A stretch of DNA of 34,746 nucleotides, from the IMG/VR virus record IMGVR_UViG_3300023179_006682, positions 1 through 34,746 of that record; one strand, given 5' to 3'. A program made the translations under genes and the position numbers. How positions within the stretch are numbered: the first letter of the stretch is position 1; the number at the start of each line of letters is the position of its first letter. Positions 1,633 through 32,511 of this stretch are shown piece by piece. The notes under the pieces were generated by a model. That model saw nothing but the letters and a program-made list of their open reading frames with translations, was not told where the DNA came from and searched no databases. This stretch comes from a virus.

Positions 1633-2082
1633 ATGGCAGAAGAAAAAAAAGCAGCAACAATTTTTGATTTAATCGGTGGGGTAACTGATAAAAAACGAGA
1701 ATGGAAAAAATGGTCAGAAACTGATCAAAAGAAATTTTCTACATTCATCGTTAACCGTTGGTTGTCAATGCGCATGGAGTTAACGGAATTGATCAATGAA
1801 TTACAAATGTATACTATTGGACAATTACGTCCACAAGAAACTTATAAATTGTATCATGATCTTTTGCCTACCAATAAAAGTTTTGCAAAATACATCAAAG
1901 GCAAATCGGAAGATACGTATGATAAAGAATTGATTGCACAATTTGCAGAACATTATCAAACAAGTTGTTCGGAAGCTGCGGATTATTTAGATTTAATGGA
2001 TAGAATACAATGTGAAAGAATATTAACCATGTATGGATATAGTGAATCAGACAAAAAACGTATGTTAAAAGGTATCAAATGA
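1633..2082 (+). CDS. Probable small clamp-loader subunit (T4 gp62-like)
   Basis: A 149-residue, mostly alpha-helical protein without an ATPase motif. T4 gp62 is a small non-ATPase subunit that completes the clamp loader with gp44 and is encoded directly after it. Here the gene follows the ATPase subunit with only two small genes between. The C-terminal part (HYQTSCSEAADYLDLM, then a helix ending MLKGIK) has the same pattern as the gp62 region with YQVNTNDAINY. The sequence match is weak and position carries much of the weight. It could instead be an unrelated helical replication accessory protein. It is the last + strand gene before a converging pair of - strand genes. Confidence 0.62.
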   Translation: MAEEKKAATIFDLIGGVTDKKREWKKWSETDQKKFSTFIVNRWLSMRMELTELINELQMYTIGQLRPQETYKLYHDLLPTNKSFAKYIKGKSEDTYDKELIAQFAEHYQTSCSEAADYLDLMDRIQCERILTMYGYSESDKKRMLKGIK

Positions 2083-2198: not shown

Positions 2199-2762
2199 TC
2201 AATGTGGTTTTTTAGAAGATTTCCAATATTTATAAAAATATTGTTTCAATCTATAACTACCACCTTCAATTGTAATATTTCCAGCTGATTTTCCATCATC
2301 GGTTGTTTTGAGTATTGTTACGAGCTTGTGATTTTCAGCCGGCGCATTCCATGTTTTCATTGCAGCAACTTGTCCATCAGCCCGAGTTTCAAAATTTTTT
2401 GAACAACATGAACCGGCAGTAACTAATCCTATCCAAGCTTTTCCATCTGTACTCTTATTAATTGTTACCTCCCAACTAGTTGTTTTCGTTGTTTTATTAA
2501 TAGTAGCTGTAACGTTTGTTACATCTGGATTATAACCTGCATCATATACTTTTTTAAGTTCGGCATTAACTTTTGTTAACATTCCGCCAACAACTACTCC
2601 GCCTGTAGATTGAAATGCATGACTTTTATCACCATTATCACCTCTAAAACTGCCGTTTACTACAATTGGAAATATCATAGGTTGTATTGATACTACAGAT
2701 TGAAACCCTTTTCTTTTATCGGGCGTTGTTATTTGTTCAATTAGTTGTTTTAATCGTATCAT
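2199..2762 (-). CDS. Putative internal head protein with capsid-targeting-like tag, paralogue A
   Basis: A 187-residue protein beginning MIRLKQLIEQ, a basic/hydrophobic tag with a possible LIE|Q cleavage site. The rest is a predicted beta-rich domain sharing many segments with the next - strand gene: FPIVV near the start, HAF, VGGM, KVNA, YNAGYNPD-like, TINKSTDG and a closing FYKY. It has a Cys pair (SCCS) that the paralogue lacks. With its neighbour it is the only gene on the - strand, and it converges on the clamp-loader operon. No enzymatic motif was found. Known internal head proteins of T4 are injected with DNA; that role is inferred here from the tag only. Confidence 0.78.
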   Translation of the reverse strand: MIRLKQLIEQITTPDKRKGFQSVVSIQPMIFPIVVNGSFRGDNGDKSHAFQSTGGVVVGGMLTKVNAELKKVYDAGYNPDVTNVTATINKTTKTTSWEVTINKSTDGKAWIGLVTAGSCCSKNFETRADGQVAAMKTWNAPAENHKLVTILKTTDDGKSAGNITIEGGSYRLKQYFYKYWKSSKKPH

Positions 2763-2787
2763 ATTAATAAATATTTAATCAATTGGA
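2741..2787 (-). repeat. 47-bp direct repeat, copy 1 (leader plus first codons)
   Basis: These 47 bases are identical to 3342-3388. On the - strand the repeat holds an AT-rich leader with ATATTTAT, the ATG, and about the first seven codons (MIRLKQL) of the tagged gene. The bodies of the two genes are clearly diverged, so the identity is confined to the control region and tag. Confidence 0.93.
2767..2774 (-). promoter_or_regulatory. ATATTTAT element 4 nt before the start codon
   Basis: Read on the - strand the sequence is ATATTTATTAATATG, with the ATG being the start of paralogue A. The same element and spacing occurs before the genes starting at 3363 (-), 22844 (+) and 26058 (+). There is no Shine-Dalgarno sequence. 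It may be a promoter box giving a very short or absent leader, or an AU-rich translation-initiation element. Confidence 0.5.
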
Positions 2788-2826
2788 GTTTATCAAATAA
2801 TTTATATAATATTTAAGTCAAACTAT

Positions 2827-3363
2827 TTAGCGTTTTGGTTTTTCGTTTAATGTATATTTATAAAACAATTGATTGACTTGGCAACCTGAAATTTTTCCGT
2901 CTTTGTTATATTCATAATCGTGCACAAGCACCATTTTATCAACAGTACCGCGGTTTGCAATTGCTTTTGATTTTTTACATTCACCTATACTTGCATGCCC
3001 ATGTTGTGTACTAACATTGTTAAAAACCCAAACTCCGCGTCCACCATGTCCTCTACTATATAATCCAACCCATGCATTGCCATCCGTACTTTTATTTATC
3101 GTAACAGACCAGTTAACGGTATAATCTGTTCCATTTTTTGTAATCTTTACGTTTATATTAGCAATATCCGGATTATAACCCGCATTATATACTTCAATAA
3201 GTTTTGCATTTACTTTATTATTCATCCCACCGACGGGTATACCATGAGTATCATTAAATGCATGCAATCTATCACAATTTCCAGTTGTTGACTGATATGT
3301 CCCAGATACTACAATTGGAAATGATAATGTATCTTCGATTATTAGTTGTTTTAATCGTATCAT
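2827..3363 (-). CDS. Putative internal head protein with capsid-targeting-like tag, paralogue B
   Basis: A 178-residue paralogue of the neighbouring - strand gene, starting MIRLKQLIIEDT with a possible LIIE|D cleavage site. Shared blocks with paralogue A include FPIVV, HAF, VGGM, KVNAKL, YNAGYNPD, the WSVTINKSTDG region and FYKY near the end; the segment after about residue 110 is divergent. Without the tag the protein is rich in Gly, Asn, Thr and Val and is probably a small beta domain. No active site is recognisable. The start is fixed by the tag and by the ATATTTAT element 4 nt upstream. The pair most likely arose by tandem duplication. Confidence 0.78.
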   Translation of the reverse strand: MIRLKQLIIEDTLSFPIVVSGTYQSTTGNCDRLHAFNDTHGIPVGGMNNKVNAKLIEVYNAGYNPDIANINVKITKNGTDYTVNWSVTINKSTDGNAWVGLYSRGHGGRGVWVFNNVSTQHGHASIGECKKSKAIANRGTVDKMVLVHDYEYNKDGKISGCQVNQLFYKYTLNEKPKR

Positions 3364-3388
3364 ATTAATAAATATTTAATCAATTGGA
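3342..3388 (-). repeat. 47-bp direct repeat, copy 2 (leader plus first codons)
   Basis: Identical over 47 bases to 2741-2787. It covers the - strand leader with ATATTTAT, the start codon and roughly the first seven codons of paralogue B. The two copies are 601 bases apart, one per gene. Confidence 0.93.
3368..3375 (-). promoter_or_regulatory. ATATTTAT element 4 nt before the start codon
   Basis: On the - strand it reads ATATTTATTAATATG into the start of paralogue B, as for paralogue A. Only 54 bases separate this start from the divergent + strand gene at 3418, so the + strand promoter must overlap this interval. Confidence 0.5.
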
Positions 3389-3417
3389 TTTTAACAAATG
3401 ATTTCATATATTATGAT

Positions 3418-4371
3418 ATGAAAGATAGTTACATCAATCCCGTATATAAACTAGCAATACGAGATGCAGAATCTGTTCCTAGAAAAATATCTTATTCACA
3501 ATGGTCAATGTATGAACGTTGTCCCCTTTCTTGGAAACTTGCATACATTGATGGTTTAGCTCCATTCCAAGCATCAATCGAAACCGTATTTGGTACAGCA
3601 TTTCATGAAACATTTCAACATTTCTTAACCGTAATGTATACGGAATCTGTTAAAAAAGCAGAATCGTTAAACCTTCGTTCCATATTGCAAAGCAAACTTC
3701 GCGATGAATATACTCGATGTGTGCAAGAAATGGGAGGTCAACATTTTTCTAATCCATTGCAATTAGCAGAATATTTAGAAGATGGTGCTGCTATTTTGCA
3801 ATGGTTTTTGAAACGACGCGCACAATACTTTTCAAGCAAAGATTGGGAATTGGTTGGCATTGAAATTGAATTATGTCACCCTGCGTCAAACAAGAATCCT
3901 TCAGTATATTGGTATGGGTTTATTGATGTTGTTATGCTGCATGTTCCTACCAATACGTTTAAATTGTTTGACATTAAAACATCTCGTAATGGATGGAATA
4001 AATCAGCCAAATCGGATGCAATGAAAGCTGCACAATTAGTGGCATATAAAAATTATTTTTCAGAACAATTTGGTGTTCCACGAGAAAACATTGATATTGA
4101 ATTTTTCATTGTTAAACGCAAGATTGTTGAAGAATCAATGTTTCCGCAAAAACGCATTCAAAATCACAAACCGTCTGCAGGTTCAGTAACACAAAAGAAA
4201 ATACAACGTCAAATTGATGCATTTGTTGATGCATGTTTTGATCAAGCAGGAAATAAAAATGCAAACAGAAACTATGTAGCCGTTGCTGGTAAAGGTGCTA
4301 CAAATTGCAAATATTGTCCATTCAAAACTGATTATGAACGATGTCCAAAAGATGCTAGGATTCGTGAATAA
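3418..4371 (+). CDS. PD-(D/E)XK nuclease with Cas4/AddB-like Fe-S signature
   Basis: A 317-residue protein of the RecB/Cas4-like nuclease superfamily. It starts with the hallmark ISYSQWSMYERCPLSWK (C35), followed by GTAFHETF. The nuclease core shows GFIDVV (D170), LFDIKTS (D185, K187) and QLVAY (Q206, Y210), matching PD-(D/E)XK plus the QxxxY motif. The C-terminus has CKYC and a further Cys (C297, C300, C309). With C35 these four would bind a 4Fe-4S staple as in AddB and Cas4. It is expected to cut or resect DNA in recombination, repair or host DNA breakdown. No helicase domain is attached. It is transcribed divergently from the - strand pair. Confidence 0.85.
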   Translation: MKDSYINPVYKLAIRDAESVPRKISYSQWSMYERCPLSWKLAYIDGLAPFQASIETVFGTAFHETFQHFLTVMYTESVKKAESLNLRSILQSKLRDEYTRCVQEMGGQHFSNPLQLAEYLEDGAAILQWFLKRRAQYFSSKDWELVGIEIELCHPASNKNPSVYWYGFIDVVMLHVPTNTFKLFDIKTSRNGWNKSAKSDAMKAAQLVAYKNYFSEQFGVPRENIDIEFFIVKRKIVEESMFPQKRIQNHKPSAGSVTQKKIQRQIDAFVDACFDQAGNKNANRNYVAVAGKGATNCKYCPFKTDYERCPKDARIRE

Positions 4372-20595: not shown

Positions 20596-20782
20596 AGGAT
20601 TGGGTGATGACATTAAACGCATCACTAGTGCAACTGGTTTAGATAAATTAGCAAAACGCATTGCACAACTTTTAGATGAAGATTGTGGTTGTGATGAACG
20701 TCAAGAATGGCTCAATGAAAAAACAAAAAATTGGTCAAGATATAAAAAGAAAAACAAGGACATAAATGGCAACAATAAGTAA
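20585..20782 (+). CDS. Small conserved phage protein with DCGC motif
   Basis: A 65-residue protein with the form SKGLGDDIKRITSATGLDKL, then LDEDCGCDERQEWLN and a lysine-rich tail. This pattern of a GLGD start and a CGC-R-x-x-LN end is familiar to me from small proteins near tail-fibre genes of phages; its function is not known. The ATG at 20585 follows GGGAGC at a suitable distance and is preferred over 20573. It overlaps the nucleotidyltransferase gene and the following fibre gene. Confidence 0.72.
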   Translation: MQSKGLGDDIKRITSATGLDKLAKRIAQLLDEDCGCDERQEWLNEKTKNWSRYKKKNKDINGNNK

Positions 20783-21515
20783 AATCGGAATTACTGTAGG
20801 AGGAACAATACAGCCGACACATGTAACAAATATTATTGATGCATTGGATGGGACTAGTAATGATGATATCACAATTAAAGGTACAATAGCTACAGGCCTG
20901 GGTACATCGGCAGCTGCAGTTAATTCCCATGCAGAAGGACTTGCTGCTTCTGCTTTGGGACCACATTCACACGCAGAAGGACGTAGTACAACTGCTAATG
21001 GCATAGGATCTCATGCAGAAGGAGATGCTACAACTGCAACGGGAGGGTTTTCCCATGCAGAAGGAGATACTACAACTGCAACGGGAGATTATTCCCATGC
21101 AGAAGGTACTTATACGCAATCTACTGGTTATGCATCTCATGCAGAAGGAAATGCTACAATTGCAACGGGAGATTGTTCCCATGCAGAAGGAAATAATGCG
21201 ATCGCATTAGGATTTGGTTCTCATGCAGAAGGAAATAATACAATAGCATCTGGATCATATCAACATGTTCAAGGTCAATTTAATACCCATGGAGATACAA
21301 AATCATTAATGATTGTTGGAAATGGTTTAGATAATTTATTACGTAAAGATGCATTTAAAGTAACAATGTCTGGATCAATTGTATTACCAACTACACAATC
21401 TGCAGCGCCAACTTGGACAGGCACCGATGGTGAAATGATATTTGCAACGATATCGGGAGATCATAGATTTTATGTATGGATGTCGGGGGCATGGAGAAGT
21501 GGTTCTCTTGCATAG
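20766..21515 (+). CDS. Fibre/adhesin-like protein with YadA-type head repeats
   Basis: A 249-residue protein. Residues 54-165 are eight consecutive 14-residue repeats of the type SHAEGxxTxAxGxx, which form the left-handed beta-roll of YadA-like trimeric adhesins and are common in phage fibres. After the repeats come a QHVQGQFNTHGD transition, a short beta domain, and an end DHRFYVWMSGAWRSGSLA resembling phage fibre termini. The protein is probably a trimeric fibre or decoration that contacts the host surface. It overlaps the preceding small gene by 17 bases. Confidence 0.8.
   Translation: MATISKIGITVGGTIQPTHVTNIIDALDGTSNDDITIKGTIATGLGTSAAAVNSHAEGLAASALGPHSHAEGRSTTANGIGSHAEGDATTATGGFSHAEGDTTTATGDYSHAEGTYTQSTGYASHAEGNATIATGDCSHAEGNNAIALGFGSHAEGNNTIASGSYQHVQGQFNTHGDTKSLMIVGNGLDNLLRKDAFKVTMSGSIVLPTTQSAAPTWTGTDGEMIFATISGDHRFYVWMSGAWRSGSLA
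20925..21260 (+). repeat. Eight in-frame 42-bp tandem repeats (YadA-like beta-roll)
   Basis: Each unit encodes SHAEG plus nine variable residues. At DNA level TCYCATGCAGAAGG recurs every 42 bases, with the rest diverging. Such in-frame tandem repeats can gain or lose units by recombination, altering fibre length without a frameshift. Confidence 0.9.
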
Positions 21516-22843: not shown

Positions 22844-23182
22844 ATGAAACTACGTAATTTACTTTTTGAAGCAAAAGAAGAAAAGAAAGAAACTTTTGAA
22901 ACATTTGCTGATACGCGAGAAGCTGGTGCAGAAAAAATTGCCGATACGGCTCACAAGAAAGGCGGATTAGCTTTACTTACTTGGCATCATTTTAAAGTTA
23001 AATTACCATATTACAAACGAGCCGCTGCTGGCCGATTTGATTTAGATAAAGCAAAACGAGAATTTGATGCTACATATAAACGCATATCCACTTCAATGAC
23101 ACAAATTGAATTTCAACGAGAGGTTGGTCGGTTAGAAGTTTTAGGTGAATTGATTATTCGAGAAGAACAAGGAAAGCGATGA
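22844..23182 (+). CDS. Conserved phage protein with capsid-targeting-like tag
   Basis: A 112-residue protein starting MKLRNLLFEAKEE, a tag with an LLFE|A cleavage site close to the T4 gp21 consensus. The rest is helical and basic: FADTREAGAEKIADTA, KKGGLALLTWHHFKVKLPYY, and VGRLEVLGELIIRE at the end. The middle segment with LTxxHFKVKLPYYK recurs in many large phages, to my knowledge as an uncharacterised family. It is likely a small DNA-binding or head protein. It is the first of three tagged genes with ATGA overlaps. Confidence 0.78.
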   Translation: MKLRNLLFEAKEEKKETFETFADTREAGAEKIADTAHKKGGLALLTWHHFKVKLPYYKRAAAGRFDLDKAKREFDATYKRISTSMTQIEFQREVGRLEVLGELIIREEQGKR

Positions 23183-23583
23183 TACGATTAGTTGATTTGT
23201 TATCAGAAGATCTTCGCCGTTGGGTGAAAGAAAAATGGACAGATCAACATGGACGACCTTGTGGTAATGCCGAAACCAAAGGAGTTAAAAAGTGTCGACC
23301 TTCTCGACGAGTATCAAAAGACACACCTAAAACATGGAGTTCATTTGATAAAAAAGAAAAGAAAAAATTGGTTGCACAAAAGCGACGAGTTGGTATGGGT
23401 AAACGTACTCCTAAGGCAGAAGGTGCAATTGAAGAAAAAAAGACAGCAAAACGAGATGCATGCTACTACAAAGTAAAAGCTCGATATACTCGCGATGGGG
23501 GAACATGGCCATCTGCTTACGGATCATTAGCACTTGCTGCATGCAGAAAAAAAGGTGCAAAGAATTGGGGTAAGAAATCATGA
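23179..23583 (+). CDS. DUF5872-family protein with capsid-targeting-like tag
   Basis: A 134-residue, very basic protein starting MIRLVDLLSEDL (LLSE|D site). It has WVKEKWTDQHGRPCGN, VKKCRPSRRV, RRVGMGKRTPKAEG, DACYYKVKARY and ACRKKGAKNWGKKS, which correspond to the conserved blocks of DUF5872 as I remember them. The function of that domain is unknown; the conserved Cys residues suggest metal binding and the charge suggests DNA or RNA. A remnant of a second copy of its 3' end lies at 24383-24436. It overlaps both neighbours by four bases. Confidence 0.8.
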   Translation: MIRLVDLLSEDLRRWVKEKWTDQHGRPCGNAETKGVKKCRPSRRVSKDTPKTWSSFDKKEKKKLVAQKRRVGMGKRTPKAEGAIEEKKTAKRDACYYKVKARYTRDGGTWPSAYGSLALAACRKKGAKNWGKKS

Positions 23584-24368
23584 TATCATTAAAATTATTA
23601 CTCGAGCAATTGAAAGACAACTGGGGACGTCCAGAAACATCCATGTGGTACGGATTCAACCCGGATACGAAACGATATGAAGCAGGACCTAATAAAGGTA
23701 AAACTGCAAAACAAGTTAGAAAACAAATGACGGCAAAAGCAGAAGCTTTGGCTTACCAACCAAAAACGAGTAAAGCCACACCATGGCCAATCCAAGTAAA
23801 TTATTATGCTCCTAAAGATACAACGTTTTTTACAGGTCATATCGCATGTAGGTCCGTTTTAGAACCTCAATATCAGGTAAATGCATGGCCATTACAGCTG
23901 AATTTTATTGATATATTACTCGGCGGAAAAAAAACTAAAAACTTTTGGAATAAACCAATGACAGGTAAAAACCTTCCTGACAAACCAAGCAACGCACAAA
24001 TAATTTATATTTATCTGACAAATCGAGAGTATGATACATTCAAAAAAATAACACCGGCTTTAAATTTAAAACTTAGGGAAAAAACAGATAAATTGGCACA
24101 GTCAGTTAAAAGTTCCAAACAAGCAATACAACATTACAATATTTTGACACAAAATTGTGCTGATGGTGTTGAACTGGCGTTAGGTTCTAAAGTTGAAAAA
24201 TGGACCACTACTAAAAAAATTATAGCTGGTGGACTTTATTTATTTAGTCCAATTTTATCACTTGCAGGCGCAGCCTTTAATGAATTTTTTGATCCAACAT
24301 TTCCTCATGATGCATTCATGAATTTAAAAAAGGTTTACAAAGGTAGAATAACATATGCTATTAAGTAA
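23580..24368 (+). CDS. Putative permuted NlpC/P60-like cysteine peptidase with capsid-targeting-like tag and membrane segment
   Basis: A 262-residue protein starting MISLKLLLEQ (LLLE|Q site). Residues 85-92 (TGHIACRS) hold a His, and NILTQNCADGVELAL (N192, C193) an NC motif. His first and NC later is the order of permuted papain-fold proteins such as LRAT or DUF4105-type. The C-terminal part contains a hydrophobic segment, IIAGGLYLFSPILSLAGAAF (about 214-233), that could enter a membrane. I infer a hydrolase or acyl-transfer enzyme packaged in the head, possibly acting at the host envelope. Which His is catalytic cannot be fixed by eye, and the fold assignment is tentative. Confidence 0.55.
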   Translation: MISLKLLLEQLKDNWGRPETSMWYGFNPDTKRYEAGPNKGKTAKQVRKQMTAKAEALAYQPKTSKATPWPIQVNYYAPKDTTFFTGHIACRSVLEPQYQVNAWPLQLNFIDILLGGKKTKNFWNKPMTGKNLPDKPSNAQIIYIYLTNREYDTFKKITPALNLKLREKTDKLAQSVKSSKQAIQHYNILTQNCADGVELALGSKVEKWTTTKKIIAGGLYLFSPILSLAGAAFNEFFDPTFPHDAFMNLKKVYKGRITYAIK

Positions 24369-24382
24369 TATAAAACAACTAA

Positions 24383-24436
24383 TTAAACTATGCAGCTTGT
24401 AGAAAAAAAAGTGCAAAAAATTGGGGTAAGAAATAA
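24383..24436 (+). pseudogene. Remnant of the 3' end of a second DUF5872 gene
   Basis: In frame the segment reads NYAACRKKSAKNWGKK and stop, against AACRKKGAKNWGKKS in the gene ending at 23583. At DNA level the two copies share about 40 nearly identical bases. There is a stop immediately upstream and no start, so this is a broken fragment. Just before it, 24371-24387 resembles the coding sequence of the KQLI tag in another frame. It is the only content of the gap from 24369 to 24484, apart from AT-rich sequence. Confidence 0.75.
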
Positions 24437-24484
24437 TATACATTGTATATTTTGAATTTTATATATTTTTAATTATATTAAGTT

Positions 24485-26057: not shown

Positions 26058-26807
26058 ATGATATCCATGAAGCGTTTATTTTTAGAAGGTCGTTATGATT
26101 CTTTAGTTACAAAGTTATCAAATACACTTTTAGCAATAATCAAAGACAGTTACACGGCAACGCAAACAGAATCAGGAAAGTTTGGTGGAAAGAAAATATA
26201 TTACACCAAATCTGAAACGGTACCTTCTATCGAAGATGATACACAACAGCCGGTTGTGTATTTTGAAGAAGTTGAAAATACAACTATTCCGGTAGAATTT
26301 TATTTGCAATTAAAAATACAATGGATTGAAGGATTAAATGATTTGCATTATGGCGGAGATGCATACAATGATTCAAAACGAGATTCAGCTGAGCCTCCAC
26401 TGATTGAAGTTAGATTGCAAATTGATCCTGCAGAATATCCGCGCGTGTTGAGTGAAATTGCAATGAATTTGCGAGATACATTGCGCCATGAAATTGAACA
26501 TGTAACGCAAAGTGGGTGGAATACAATTGATGGTAAATATATACCGTCGGATCAAAGTCTTCGCAATCGCATTGAAGCTGGCAATTTGCCCGCAGCACGT
26601 TATTTTACGTTGCCTAAAGAAATTCCAGCAATGCTTCAAGGATTGTATTTTAAGGCAAAAAAAAGCAAACAATCATTCAAAATGGTAATTGACGAATATT
26701 TATCTATGTGGGTAAATAATGGTACTATATCTGCACAAGAAAAAGAAAACATTTTAAACACTTGGCGAACATATCTTCCTAAACTAGGAATACGACAGGA
26801 AATGTAA
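26058..26807 (+). CDS. Putative zinc metallopeptidase (HExxH) with capsid-targeting-like tag
   Basis: A 249-residue protein starting MISMKRLFLEGRYDS, a tag with a possible FLE|G cleavage site. HEIEH at residues 144-148 (in LRDTLRHEIEHVTQSGW) is a zinc-peptidase motif, and a Glu 40 residues later (E188 in LPKEIPAML) could be the third ligand. The region before it is predicted beta-rich. I know similar LRHELxHxxQ proteins from large phages, where they are annotated at most as putative metallopeptidases. If packaged, it could act on a host target immediately after entry. The start 26058 is chosen for the tag; ATG 26043 would overlap the HNH gene. Confidence 0.68.
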   Translation: MISMKRLFLEGRYDSLVTKLSNTLLAIIKDSYTATQTESGKFGGKKIYYTKSETVPSIEDDTQQPVVYFEEVENTTIPVEFYLQLKIQWIEGLNDLHYGGDAYNDSKRDSAEPPLIEVRLQIDPAEYPRVLSEIAMNLRDTLRHEIEHVTQSGWNTIDGKYIPSDQSLRNRIEAGNLPAARYFTLPKEIPAMLQGLYFKAKKSKQSFKMVIDEYLSMWVNNGTISAQEKENILNTWRTYLPKLGIRQEM

Positions 26808-28645
26808 TGATTAAATTGAAACGACTTTTAGAGACGCAACTAATCAAAGAAGCATTACCTTTAGATATGGCCCGTAACTATGTTAGCATCAAGCGAAATC
26901 CAGAAATTACACAACGATTAGATTCCATATTAGATGCAATCAAACAACGTCCAGATGCAAAATCATCGCGTAGAGGTGATAGAATTGCGGTAAAGTTTGA
27001 AAGCAAAGAAACAATATATGATCCAAGCCAAGATAGATTATCTCATCAAATCAGAAATTTTTATCCAGTTTTAAAACGATACGTAACAGCTGCTAATTTG
27101 TATTCTCAGCGAGAAAATTTTGATACGTTTGAACTGCCAAATGTGGATCAAATCATATACGGCCAACCAAAGGATGCATATGGTCGCACTACTAAAATGT
27201 CTAAATTCATTGCGGCTGTAATCGCACAATCAGACGTAAAATTTAAACTAACTACATTGGAACCATATGTTGAAACTGATGCAAAGGGAAAAAGAATGCT
27301 TGTTGGTACCGGCGGCAGCCGACCATGGGAAGAAATTGTTGCACAAATAAAACAAGAAGCTAAAAAGAAAATAGATGACATCTTAAAACTTTACGATGAA
27401 ATTCCAGAAATTAAGCAAGCTCGAGAAAACAAAGTAAAAACATTTTACATTGTGTTTTCAAAACATGCATATGATGTTGCCGGAATGAGTACGAATCGTG
27501 GTTGGACTAGTTGCATGAATTTATATTCGGGCATCAATAAACACTACATACAATATGATGTTGAAAATGGTACCATGGTTGCATATTTAGTTGCAAATGA
27601 TGATTTAAACATAACACGTCCCATTGCTCGAGTTGCAATTAAACCGTTTGTCAATACCGATGATGCAACCGATGTATTTTATGAACCAGAAGAACGTGTA
27701 TATGGTACGCCACCGCATACATTTTTAGAAGCTGTTAACAACATTGTAAATGCAGCACAACCCGGAAAAACGGGACGATTCAAAATGGTTGATACATTGT
27801 ATTGTGATTCGAAACGACATGTTACTAAATATGGTACGGACAACATTGAACAATTGGTTGCTAACATGTTAAAGCGTAAGCAAGTAGCTACAACGACGGA
27901 TGAAGTATATTACATACTAGATAATTATGGAACATATACCCCTAGGGGAGGCACATTGAATTTTGTAGATGCAGATAAATTGTATGTTGATGCTCCTGCA
28001 GGCGATGTTGATTTCGGGCTACCCATATCAAATAACAATCCTACATATTGTCCCATACAATTTAAACGCATTGATACATTGCGAATTACCAATTTAACTA
28101 GTTTTGAAAATTTTCCAGAATCATGTCATACTTTGGTATTGCGAGATCCAAACGTTAAGAATTTTCAAGGATGCCCAACTTCATTTGATACAATTTATCT
28201 TAATGGTGGTGATTTTACTGATTTTTCAGGTATACGTAGTGTCTCAAGTCTTGTATTAAAACCAGGTATAGAGTCAAATACAACTATTCGATCTTTTCGA
28301 GGGTTGCCAGCAAGCATTACTGAAATTGAATGTTTCAATAGCGACGTAGATGTTGAAATGGAGTTACAAGACTTAATACAACAAGTAAAACCATTGAATC
28401 TACAAAAATTAAGTTTGCCGCAGCTAATCATAAACATTAACAATACTTCTAAACTTAGAATATCATTTAATGAAGCAGTCAAAAAAACTTTATCAACACT
28501 AGAAAATCCAACGTCACAAACTATGGAAGTAGTAGCATATTTCATGACATTGCAGCAAATACTCAATGATTTGCCATCATTGCAAGAAATTTGTAACATA
28601 CATCGAGATGACATACAAAACAAAATTGATGCTTTGTTGCGATAA
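26807..28645 (+). CDS. Large protein with capsid-targeting-like tag and LRR-like C-terminus
   Basis: A 612-residue protein starting MIKLKRLLETQLIKEALPLD. It has two possible cleavage sites, LLE|T and IKE|A; the second is the better T4-type site. Residues 215-290 contain a conserved-looking block (FSKHAYDVAGMSTNRGWTSCMNL, then GTMVAYLVANDDLNI and ARVAIKPF) that I recall from other large phages without function. From about 410 to 530 the sequence takes an LRR-like form with short repeats (IDTLRITNLTSFENFP, CHTLVLRDPNVKNFQG, SLVLKPGI). The remaining end is helical. The start overlaps the previous stop (TAATG). It is the largest tagged protein in the window. Confidence 0.7.
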   Translation: MIKLKRLLETQLIKEALPLDMARNYVSIKRNPEITQRLDSILDAIKQRPDAKSSRRGDRIAVKFESKETIYDPSQDRLSHQIRNFYPVLKRYVTAANLYSQRENFDTFELPNVDQIIYGQPKDAYGRTTKMSKFIAAVIAQSDVKFKLTTLEPYVETDAKGKRMLVGTGGSRPWEEIVAQIKQEAKKKIDDILKLYDEIPEIKQARENKVKTFYIVFSKHAYDVAGMSTNRGWTSCMNLYSGINKHYIQYDVENGTMVAYLVANDDLNITRPIARVAIKPFVNTDDATDVFYEPEERVYGTPPHTFLEAVNNIVNAAQPGKTGRFKMVDTLYCDSKRHVTKYGTDNIEQLVANMLKRKQVATTTDEVYYILDNYGTYTPRGGTLNFVDADKLYVDAPAGDVDFGLPISNNNPTYCPIQFKRIDTLRITNLTSFENFPESCHTLVLRDPNVKNFQGCPTSFDTIYLNGGDFTDFSGIRSVSSLVLKPGIESNTTIRSFRGLPASITEIECFNSDVDVEMELQDLIQQVKPLNLQKLSLPQLIININNTSKLRISFNEAVKKTLSTLENPTSQTMEVVAYFMTLQQILNDLPSLQEICNIHRDDIQNKIDALLR

Positions 28646-29057: not shown

Positions 29058-29177
29058 ATGAACATGGAAAAGATTGAAGTAACAATGCAGGAAATTTGGC
29101 AGGCGACTCGTCCAATCGTTCAACGCAGCAAAAAATCTTACACCCGCAAGAAAAAACATAAAAAACAAGAAGAATAG
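29058..29177 (+). CDS. Small basic protein of unknown function
   Basis: A 39-residue protein with a MQEIWQATRPIVQRSKK core and a lysine-rich end (SYTRKKKHKKQEE). Short proteins of this kind, with a W-x-x-x-x-P segment before a K-x-Y-x-RKK tail, are common between phage genes. A related segment (KQEIWEGVR) appears in the partial gene at the right edge. The ATG lies in an AT-rich stretch without a clear ribosome-binding site. Confidence 0.55.
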   Translation: MNMEKIEVTMQEIWQATRPIVQRSKKSYTRKKKHKKQEE

Positions 29178-29189
29178 GTTGGAAGATAA

Positions 29190-29223
29190 CTCTTTATTTC
29201 ATATTATTTAGAAAAATAAAGAG
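29190..29223 (+). promoter_or_regulatory. Leader hairpin upstream of the AAA+ gene
   Basis: CTCTTTATTT (29190-29199) pairs perfectly with AAATAAAGAG (29214-29223) around a 14-base loop, and the ATG is 3 nt after the stem. The only purine-rich segment that might bind the ribosome lies inside the stem. The leader from 29193 to 29226 matches 30446-30479 in 32 of 34 bases. It may be an operator, a translation-control hairpin or a promoter. Confidence 0.6.
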
Positions 29224-29226
29224 CAT

Positions 29227-30392: not shown

Positions 30393-30422
30393 AAAGAGGC
30401 GGCAGAAATGTCGCCTTTTTTT
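30393..30422 (+). terminator. Rho-independent terminator
   Basis: AGGCGGCA (30397-30404) pairs with TGTCGCCT (30409-30416), with one G-T pair, around a GAAA tetraloop, and is followed by a run of seven T. Flanking A and T bases extend the stem. It is the strongest terminator in the window and separates the ATPase and VWA genes. Confidence 0.92.
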
Positions 30423-30442
30423 GCATAATGGTTGGAAACTGA

Positions 30443-30480
30443 ATATTTATTTCATATTATATAGAAAAATAAAAAGCATG
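30443..30480 (+). promoter_or_regulatory. Leader of the VWA gene, with ATATTTAT and near-copy of the ATPase leader
   Basis: ATATTTAT is at 30443-30450. From 30446 to 30479 the sequence matches the leader of the AAA+ gene in 32 of 34 bases. The hairpin is shortened: TTTATTT (30446-30452) pairs with AAATAAA (30467-30473). As a terminator lies just upstream, this leader probably includes or directly follows a promoter. Confidence 0.6.
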
Positions 30481-32511
30481 AGTATATTAGGCAAATTTGA
30501 TGGCAAAAGATATTTTTCCAATTCAGCATCTAGCTTTTGGTTGAATGAAAATTTTGATACAAACTTTAAACGTAGTGCTGGCATTGATTACACCAAATTG
30601 GCTGCAACGCAACGTGCTATTGCTAATTTTGTTAACATTGTTACCGGTAAAACAATTCCCGTAATATTTCAGTCTGCAGATTCTAGTTATACCGATGGCC
30701 AATCCGTTGTTATTGGTACCAAACTTGATGACAAGAATTTTGATTCGGCAGTTGGATTGGCATTGCATGAAGGTTCGCATATTGCATTGACTGATTTTGA
30801 TATGTTTAAAGGTGGTGTATTGTCCAACAGCAAAATGGCAAAAATTATTCAACTCAATGGATATGATCCTGAGATGAACATGTCACATAAAGATTTTGCA
30901 ATCATCAAAGATTTATTGAATTGGATTGAAGATCGCCGCATTGACTTTCATATCTATACAACCGCACCCGGTTATCGTATGTATTATGAAGCCATGTATG
31001 ACAAATATTTCAATGATAAAATTATTGATAAAGCTCTGCGCGAAAATGAAAAGACCGAAGAGTCTTGGGATGATTACATGTTTCATGTTATCAATTTAAC
31101 TAATCCTAATCGCAAATTACAAGCCTTAAAGGCACTGCAAGATATTTGGAATGTAATTGATTTGCGAAACATTCAACGACTTAAATCAACCGAAGATGCA
31201 TTGTTAGTTGCATGCAAAGTATATAAACTTATCAAAGATGCTGTTGCAGAAGACGAACAACAAACAACTCGACAAGATGACTTTGCGGCGGATGGCGATG
31301 GTGGTAATGCCAACGACGATAATGTTGGTGGTGATGATGGTGGTGATGACAACGACGATGGCAGCACATCGGCAAATTCAGGCAACAATGCAACTTCTAA
31401 TTCTTCACTTTCTCCGGCGGAACGACAAAAATTAGATACAGCAATTGAACGACAACGAGATTTTCTTAGTGGTAACAATAAAAAGACGGGTAAATTGACT
31501 AAAACGCAATCAAACATTGTTAATGCAGTTCGCGATTCGGGTACAGAGGTTCGTCAAGTTGCAACAGATGAATCCGGTACCGCTGATTTTGTTGATACGA
31601 TTGTTATAAAAAAATTGACTCCAGGCATTATTGCATCAATGCCGCACATGTTTGAATCATTTGCTGAAGATTTCATATCAGGTACTTGCAAGCTTGATGA
31701 TAAATCTCATAAATCTAATTCAATATTGAATAATGATAAAGCAGTTACGCGCGGCATCATCCTTGGTAAAATGCTAGGTAGAAAATTGCAACTTAGAAAT
31801 GCAGATCGCACTTTGAAAACTACAAGATTGCAAGCAGGTAAAATTGACCGAAGATTGGTTGCACAGTTAGGATTTGATAATGCAAATGTATTTCATCGCA
31901 TTGTTACGGACCGTTATAAAAATTATTTTATTCATATTTCAATTGATGCATCAGGCTCAATGTCTGGTAGTAAGTTTAGTAATTCAATTACATCGGCAGT
32001 AGCAGTAGCACAAGCCGCAGCAATGACGACGGGAATTCGAGTACAAATTTCGCTTCGAGGAACTGATAGTACCATTGGTGGTAAAGAAAGAGCAGTAACG
32101 ATATATGCATATGATTCGGCTCATGACAAACTAAGCAAGATCCGAAACTATTTCAAATATCTAAGTGTATTTGGATGTACTCCAGAAGGCATTGCATTTA
32201 AGAGTATTGAACAAGATATCAAACGAGATGCTAAAGGTGATGAATGTATCTTTGTTAATTATTCAGATGGATTTCCAACCAATGTTTCGGGTTGTGCATA
32301 TAGTTACGATGGCGTAGGATTTACAAGACGCGTAATTAATGGGTTCCGCGAATTGGGCATTAACATTGTTAGTTATTTTATTTCAGATTCATGCAACGAA
32401 TCAGAAACATTTCGCAGAATGTATGGGATTGATTCAAAATTTATTGATCCACGTAACATGAATGATGTAGCTCGAACTTTGAATTCAAAATTCTTGGAAA
32501 TGGCACGATAA
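30478..32511 (+). CDS. CobT-like VWA-domain protein
   Basis: A 677-residue protein. Residues 97-101 are HEGSH, in GLALHEGSHIALTDFD, a metal-binding-like motif found in phage relatives. Residues about 270-310 form an acidic low-complexity linker rich in Asp, Gly and Asn, as in CobT. The C-terminal VWA domain carries a MIDAS DASGSMSGS starting at D490. The preceding gene is the matching ATPase. The start at 30478 is fixed by its leader; an upstream frame start at 30421 lies in the terminator. A chaperone or metal-insertion role is possible, but neither is shown. Confidence 0.86.
   Translation: MSILGKFDGKRYFSNSASSFWLNENFDTNFKRSAGIDYTKLAATQRAIANFVNIVTGKTIPVIFQSADSSYTDGQSVVIGTKLDDKNFDSAVGLALHEGSHIALTDFDMFKGGVLSNSKMAKIIQLNGYDPEMNMSHKDFAIIKDLLNWIEDRRIDFHIYTTAPGYRMYYEAMYDKYFNDKIIDKALRENEKTEESWDDYMFHVINLTNPNRKLQALKALQDIWNVIDLRNIQRLKSTEDALLVACKVYKLIKDAVAEDEQQTTRQDDFAADGDGGNANDDNVGGDDGGDDNDDGSTSANSGNNATSNSSLSPAERQKLDTAIERQRDFLSGNNKKTGKLTKTQSNIVNAVRDSGTEVRQVATDESGTADFVDTIVIKKLTPGIIASMPHMFESFAEDFISGTCKLDDKSHKSNSILNNDKAVTRGIILGKMLGRKLQLRNADRTLKTTRLQAGKIDRRLVAQLGFDNANVFHRIVTDRYKNYFIHISIDASGSMSGSKFSNSITSAVAVAQAAAMTTGIRVQISLRGTDSTIGGKERAVTIYAYDSAHDKLSKIRNYFKYLSVFGCTPEGIAFKSIEQDIKRDAKGDECIFVNYSDGFPTNVSGCAYSYDGVGFTRRVINGFRELGINIVSYFISDSCNESETFRRMYGIDSKFIDPRNMNDVARTLNSKFLEMAR

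Follow-up and report, generated by a model that had tools for sequence, protein, structure and literature searches.

Genes A and B of an uncultured, T4-like phage in all likelihood encode cargo proteins of a T4-type internal head protein system, and the block of identical DNA at their starts can with the same good confidence be attributed to local recombination. The packaging, cleavage and injection of the products, as well as the promoter activity of the block, are what we infer from sequence. The DNA that was analysed, called the window in the following, is a 34,746-base IMG/VR virus record with T4-like genes, a single metagenomic contig that was analysed as assembled. The observations on which this reading is built are the repeat itself, the tag family to which it belongs, a protease gene in related phages, a discordance between the histories of blocks and bodies, and the exchange of cargo with junctions in the tag.

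Two paralogues behind an identical block

Gene A (2199..2762, minus strand) codes for 187 amino acids and gene B (2827..3363, minus strand) for 178. The two are real paralogues, and their proteins are only 49% identical over 121 aligned residues, in agreement with the divergence of the bodies described in the original prediction. The 47-bp identity reported between bases 2741-2787 and 3342-3388 is exact, and the neighbouring base (2740/3341) extends it to 48 bp. The repeat thus occupies 2740..2787 before gene A and 3341..3388 before gene B, both on the minus strand, and consists of native site flank, leader, ATG and codons 2-7. An ungapped match of 61/64 positions (95%) connects 2740-2803 with 3341-3404, with the two repeat flanks differing at three positions. 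The copies are arranged in tandem, in the same orientation and with a 601-bp spacing. In the 5' to 3' direction, the block is made up of the site flank, the element ATATTTAT, TAAT, ATG and ATACGATTAAAACAACTAAT, which encodes IRLKQL and contributes two further bases. The leader and the MIRLKQL codons are covered as had been stated, and the repeat runs on to the second base of codon 8 (Ile). In steps of 10 nt, all positions agree (10/10) from -20 to +19 relative to the ATG; identity falls after +20 and is at chance level from about +30.

A chance origin of the identity is excluded, because the 13 leader bases outside the ATATTTATTAAT element would agree by chance with a probability of about 7e-8 (summed squared base frequencies of 0.28 per position), and because the probability that the same codons for IRLKQL were used independently is 0.007. 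Other exact direct repeats of at least 18 bp occur in the window only in an array of 42-nt protein repeats at 20.9-21.3 kb. The array (20925-21284) comprises eight tandem units within the gene at 20766-21515 (SHAEG repeats). A second leader repeat, of 50 bp and 86% identity, is found at 29177-29226 and 30430-30479, where the copies precede an AAA ATPase gene (29227) and a gene at about 30480 (ORF 30421-32511).

The A/B bodies had no hit in Pfam, no match at E<0.001 in a Foldseek comparison with the PDB, and a best Z of 3.4, within background, in VIA-align. The sole PHROG hit of gene A was weak (E 0.0077). One viral relative of the A/B body was found, and its function is unassigned. A search of isolated phages with gene B as the query gave no match. 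The gene B product is predicted to contain an alpha/beta domain after a low-confidence tag.

The tag family and the upstream element

The T4 prohead protease cuts after L/I-X-E, the first 10 residues of T4 IPIII suffice to send proteins into the head, and the tag has been proposed as a way to incorporate varied proteins (PMC9026906). By the same rule, the gene A tag MIRLKQLIE (2736..2762, minus strand) has a predicted prohead-protease site between L-I-E and Q, and the gene B tag MIRLKQLIIE (3334..3363, minus strand) has one between I-I-E and D. MIRLKQL together with the Glu probably represents a capsid-targeting propeptide of the T4 type, with a site for the prohead protease, (L/I)-x-E. A propeptide ending in L/I-X-E is present in A, B and five other genes of the window. 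Tagged genes on its plus strand encode MKLRNLLFEAK (22844..23182, with a ATATTTATTAAT leader directly before the ATG), MIRLVDLLSED in front of a DUF5872 body (23179..23583), MISLKLLLEQ (23580..24368), MISMKRLFLEGRYDSL (26058..26807, with the leader ATATTTATTATT and a HEIEH motif in the body) and MIKLKRLLETQ (26807..28645, 612 aa).

The scan of viral contigs with AATATTTATTAATATGAT returned 88 places, most of them at ORF starts, and many of the ORF proteins begin in a MIxLKxLLxE-like fashion and have unrelated continuations. In 17 records of related phages, among them the isolate Flavobacterium phage immuto, the tag pattern, a regular expression that partly builds in L/I-x-E, was found at 104 of 1092 gene starts, compared with 34 of 4713 internal Met positions (p=2e-48). 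In the related Flavobacterium-type T4-like phages, a tag of this kind opens about 10% of the genes. With near-duplicates among the records removed, single linkage sorts 109 tagged genes into 58 cargo families, an approximate count. The tag consensus is MI[K/R]LKxLLxE. The Glu is residue 8-10 of the tag, and P3, two residues ahead of the Glu, is L or I in 104 of the 109 tags, as the search pattern partly imposes. One propeptide type is hence found in front of unrelated mature parts, both across these families and in contig L166, in which a similar block precedes two unrelated cargos. Two recognised cargo types are peptidoglycan enzymes, namely a glucosaminidase (L186) and an M23 peptidase with a tail lysozyme (L012).

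A gp21-like protease is encoded by the relatives with a head module, most of which also have gp23, and by immuto, which has a gp20/gp21/gp23 head module; the window is a 34.7 kb fragment without head genes. The second part of the block would be a capsid-targeting propeptide, M-I-[K/R]-L-K-x-L-[L/I]-x-E, which is about 10 residues long and is cut after the Glu by a gp21-type prohead protease. The tagged proteins would be packaged, cut and ejected into the host.

The ATATTTAT element, a candidate late promoter, is located 4 nt upstream of the start codon both in gene A (2767..2774, minus strand) and in gene B (3368..3375, minus strand). The pattern ATATTTATNNNNNNNNATG was also searched and had no match, the actual spacing being 4 nt. 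Upstream of ORFs, ATATTTAT was counted 214 times on the sense strand versus 12 times on the antisense strand, and its spacing to the ATG is bimodal, with peaks at 4-5 nt and 14-24 nt. Such strand-specific placement before ORFs at short preferred spacings is the pattern that would be expected of a leaderless late promoter. In the isolate immuto, ATATTTAT precedes genes annotated as terminase, tail sheath and tail tube. Judging from its placement, the element is probably a late promoter. As the first part of the block, it would be so near to the ATG that the mRNA is leaderless or nearly so, and the same is predicted for the other genes with closely spaced ATATTTAT. A spacing of 2-9 nt was found for 36 of the 46 tagged genes with the element, versus 60 of 186 untagged ones (p=2e-8). 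ATATTTAT is also present before many untagged genes, and is therefore not tied to packaging.

The use of ATATTTAT and of short spacing by untagged genes would also suit a tag that acts as a host-targeting or translation-enhancing N-terminus instead of a packaging signal. We consider this rather improbable. The L/I-x-E motif at 8-10 residues is as in T4 propeptides (PMC9026906), and T4 Alt, which starts with MELITELFDE, has the same layout. A short hydrophobic, MxxxxLL-like segment (e.g. MSTINQLLE, MSISNLLQ) is likewise found at the N-terminus of several of the group's major capsid proteins. Finally, the GRYDSL body, which follows MISMKRLFLE in the window, is found in immuto inside a larger protein directly after VMAE, which at this same border may serve as a protease site.

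A variable locus and the origin of block identity

Genes A and B lie in a variable locus that is bordered by the gene for the clamp-loader A subunit (1633..2082, plus strand) and a divergent PD-(D/E)XK exonuclease gene (3418..4371, plus strand). A search for both flanking genes retrieved 123 contigs with 71 distinct alleles, and the gap between clamp loader and exonuclease varies among the alleles from 29 to 3582 bp. The cargo differs among close relatives and the flanking genes are conserved, as is typical of a hypervariable internal-protein locus. In L173 and L174, which are the closest relatives (exonuclease 96-98% identical), the site is without cargo, and TTTGTTAAAATCCAA, the flank, is directly followed by ATATCGATGTTC. 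The window has these two flanks on either side of B and A, and a further copy of the flank, differing at three positions, stands before A. Since this flank is present at the empty site, the repeat is composed of native site flank, leader and tag. Tagged cargos would be gained, lost and exchanged at this locus.

Two further observations concern the locus. Bases 2079-2160 of the window hold the remnant of a gene of about 71 amino acids (MSVNTQSHYKGKDSLYKF...) that in relatives normally follows the clamp loader, with its middle deleted beside the cargo insertion. In some phages (L175, L196, L239, L251), genes that by eye resemble HNH endonucleases are present in the locus, and these could drive exchange.

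A tree of the bodies places gene A beside L169 and L172 (support 100/99), the relatives with A-type cargo, and a tree uniting A and B, the latter with B-type relatives in L165, L166 and L167, as one clade is rejected (AU p=5e-5). The split between the bodies is therefore older than the split between these phages. The bodies group by type across phages, whereas the blocks group by phage: between A and B, the 40-nt leader is 93% and the initial 24-nt coding stretch 96% identical, and the B-type gene of L166 and the A-type gene of L169 agree in 40/40 leader positions and likewise in 96% of that coding stretch. In the B-type homologues of L165 and L167, the leader and tag DNA is different. The same orientation, the 601-bp spacing and the common site flank would all be expected from a very recent tandem duplication of one whole gene, with bodies that diversified fast and a block that remained unchanged for lack of time. 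The body tree, with A nearer to L169/L172 than to B, largely refutes this scenario, which we regard as extremely unlikely.

Cargo is exchanged with junctions inside the tag, and the suggestion that cargo changes behind a constant block is in this respect borne out. Contigs L166 and L169 are 97% identical through the exonuclease gene to 24 nt into the tag, and then differ. Within L166, two unrelated cargos (one of 439 aa, the other B-type, with no BLAST similarity between them) follow blocks that are 88-92% alike, and identity falls to chance at +30. At another place in the window, that of the gene at 23580, the sequence matches the relative G010 at 87% until 20 nt inside the tag; the cargos are unrelated, and the match resumes (85%) from about 24467. 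Several other pairs differ in cargo but are homologous over 130-320 bp upstream, and their homology breaks off in the interval from -15 to +30 relative to the ATG. The 3'-terminal part of the DUF5872 gene (23535-23581) recurs with 87% identity at 24391-24437, beyond the cargo gene at 23580-24368, and a short direct duplication thus brackets this cargo as well.

Strong selection at the DNA level on the whole block, one of the two causes of its identity originally envisaged, is not supported. Purifying selection would keep leader and tag identical and make recombination unnecessary, and the ATATTTATTAAT part of the leader is indeed conserved between phages: among 11 orthologues of the GRYDSL family, the last 12 leader bases are 86% identical. 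The tag DNA of this family, however, diverges as fast as the body (58% versus 61% for the next 30 codons), and DNA-level constraint on the tag was rejected there. Equal divergence of tag and body is what the original prediction had set as its refutation, and this applies to the selection half of the idea. Moreover, the B-type genes of L165 and L167 differ in leader and tag DNA, part of the identical stretch is site flank, which occurs even where a cargo gene is lacking, and not one of 303 within-genome pairs of tagged genes with different cargo has a common run of 25 bp. Selection as the sole cause is thus largely refuted, and we consider it very unlikely. In the family of the gene at 22844, the tag is more conserved than the fast-evolving body (66% versus 49% of nucleotides), and the constraint there is therefore on the peptide pattern.

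The other cause envisaged, homogenisation by gene conversion, is not supported as a genome-wide process; locally, it is one of two possible routes. Together with the absence of common 25-bp runs, the codon agreement of tagged genes, which is not in excess within genomes (0.513, versus 0.503 between genomes), led us to reject genome-wide conversion of tags. Homogenisation is local, at one variable locus, and local recombination explains the block identity, whereas selection on tag DNA does not. The second block, together with the native site flank, would have been copied or brought in by recombination beside the first, next to bodies that would be old, separate types. This may have happened through gene conversion of the block or by the arrival of a body behind a block already in place; the sequence of events at 2.2-3.4 kb is read from one metagenomic contig.

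The origin of the window as a metagenomic contig raises the question of an assembly artefact, in which reads of two strains, one with A and one with B, were joined through the common block. An exact search of viral contigs with the 30-nt leader of the window found no second contig with the arrangement; a search with the leader of L166 and L169 returned only these two contigs, and an exact search of bacterial genomes with leader and tag returned none. However, the point at which the end of B meets the flank of A lies outside the exact repeat, and three positions distinguish the two flanks. The independent contig L166 also has two tagged genes and common blocks at the locus, and the layout is the same in T4. 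An artefact is thus highly improbable.

Relation to T4 and immuto, and implications

The arrangement is a variant of the internal-protein system of T4, from which it is set apart by its tag consensus, a much larger repertoire and the fusion of a promoter-like element. T4 IPI, IPII and IPIII also have a short N-terminal propeptide ending in L/I-x-E, unrelated mature parts and genes in a hotspot (PMC9026906, PMC12373910). Ip1-3 have nothing in common except the N-terminal leader, and block different GmrSD restriction enzymes (PMC12373910). As in the window, a perfect DNA run spans start codon and tag in the tandem T4 genes ipII and ipIII, which encode capsid-targeted proteins with unrelated bodies: it measures 47 bp and covers ribosome-binding site, ATG and tag. 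The tag sequence MKTYQEFIAE of T4 IPII/IPIII was not matched; the consensus here differs from it, and its layout is closer to that of T4 Alt. Similarity also extends to alt and its partial copy alt.-1, tandem copies with an N-terminal tag that are identical for 28 bp from the ATG. In T4, however, the second copy is a broken remnant, whereas A and B are two intact genes with bodies of different types. Other differences from T4 are the far greater number of tagged genes (about 10% of gene starts in the 17 records), the expression signal, which here is often located 4-5 nt before the ATG without a ribosome-binding site, and the host, which is probably a Bacteroidota species and not E. coli.

Flavobacterium phage vB_FspM_immuto (Immutovirus) resembles the phage of the window in having ATATTTAT before late genes and several tagged genes. 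Among the isolates in the collection, it alone encodes a GRYDSL cargo homologue (34% identity), which, unlike in the window, is fused behind other domains. Its gp088 (NC_055915, 107131-109854), annotated only as NMN adenylyltransferase, is polyprotein-like, with NadR-like and metalloprotease-like parts and a possible prohead-protease site between them. No virion proteome was found in the literature on immuto that was consulted.

The idea of a movable cassette survives in so far as a candidate expression signal and a packaging-type tag are joined in one block, behind which cargo is exchanged; selection on the DNA and genome-wide homogenisation are not part of it. Tentatively, and with more doubt than confidence, the block of about 50 bp, with late promoter, leaderless start codon and capsid-targeting tag, may be seen as a plug-in unit that serves as a homology handle for the capture and exchange of injected effector genes. 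If so, any ORF landing behind the block would at once be expressed late and packaged. The signature of ATATTTAT, an ATG within 4-8 nt and MIxLKxLLxE may delineate the probable injected-protein repertoire of an uncultured phage group from DNA alone, and the recombination at the tag offers a base-resolution view of how such a repertoire changes. Because the T4 internal proteins are anti-restriction factors (PMC12373910), the tagged cargos make good candidates for proteins with which phages of Bacteroidota counter defence and take over the host.
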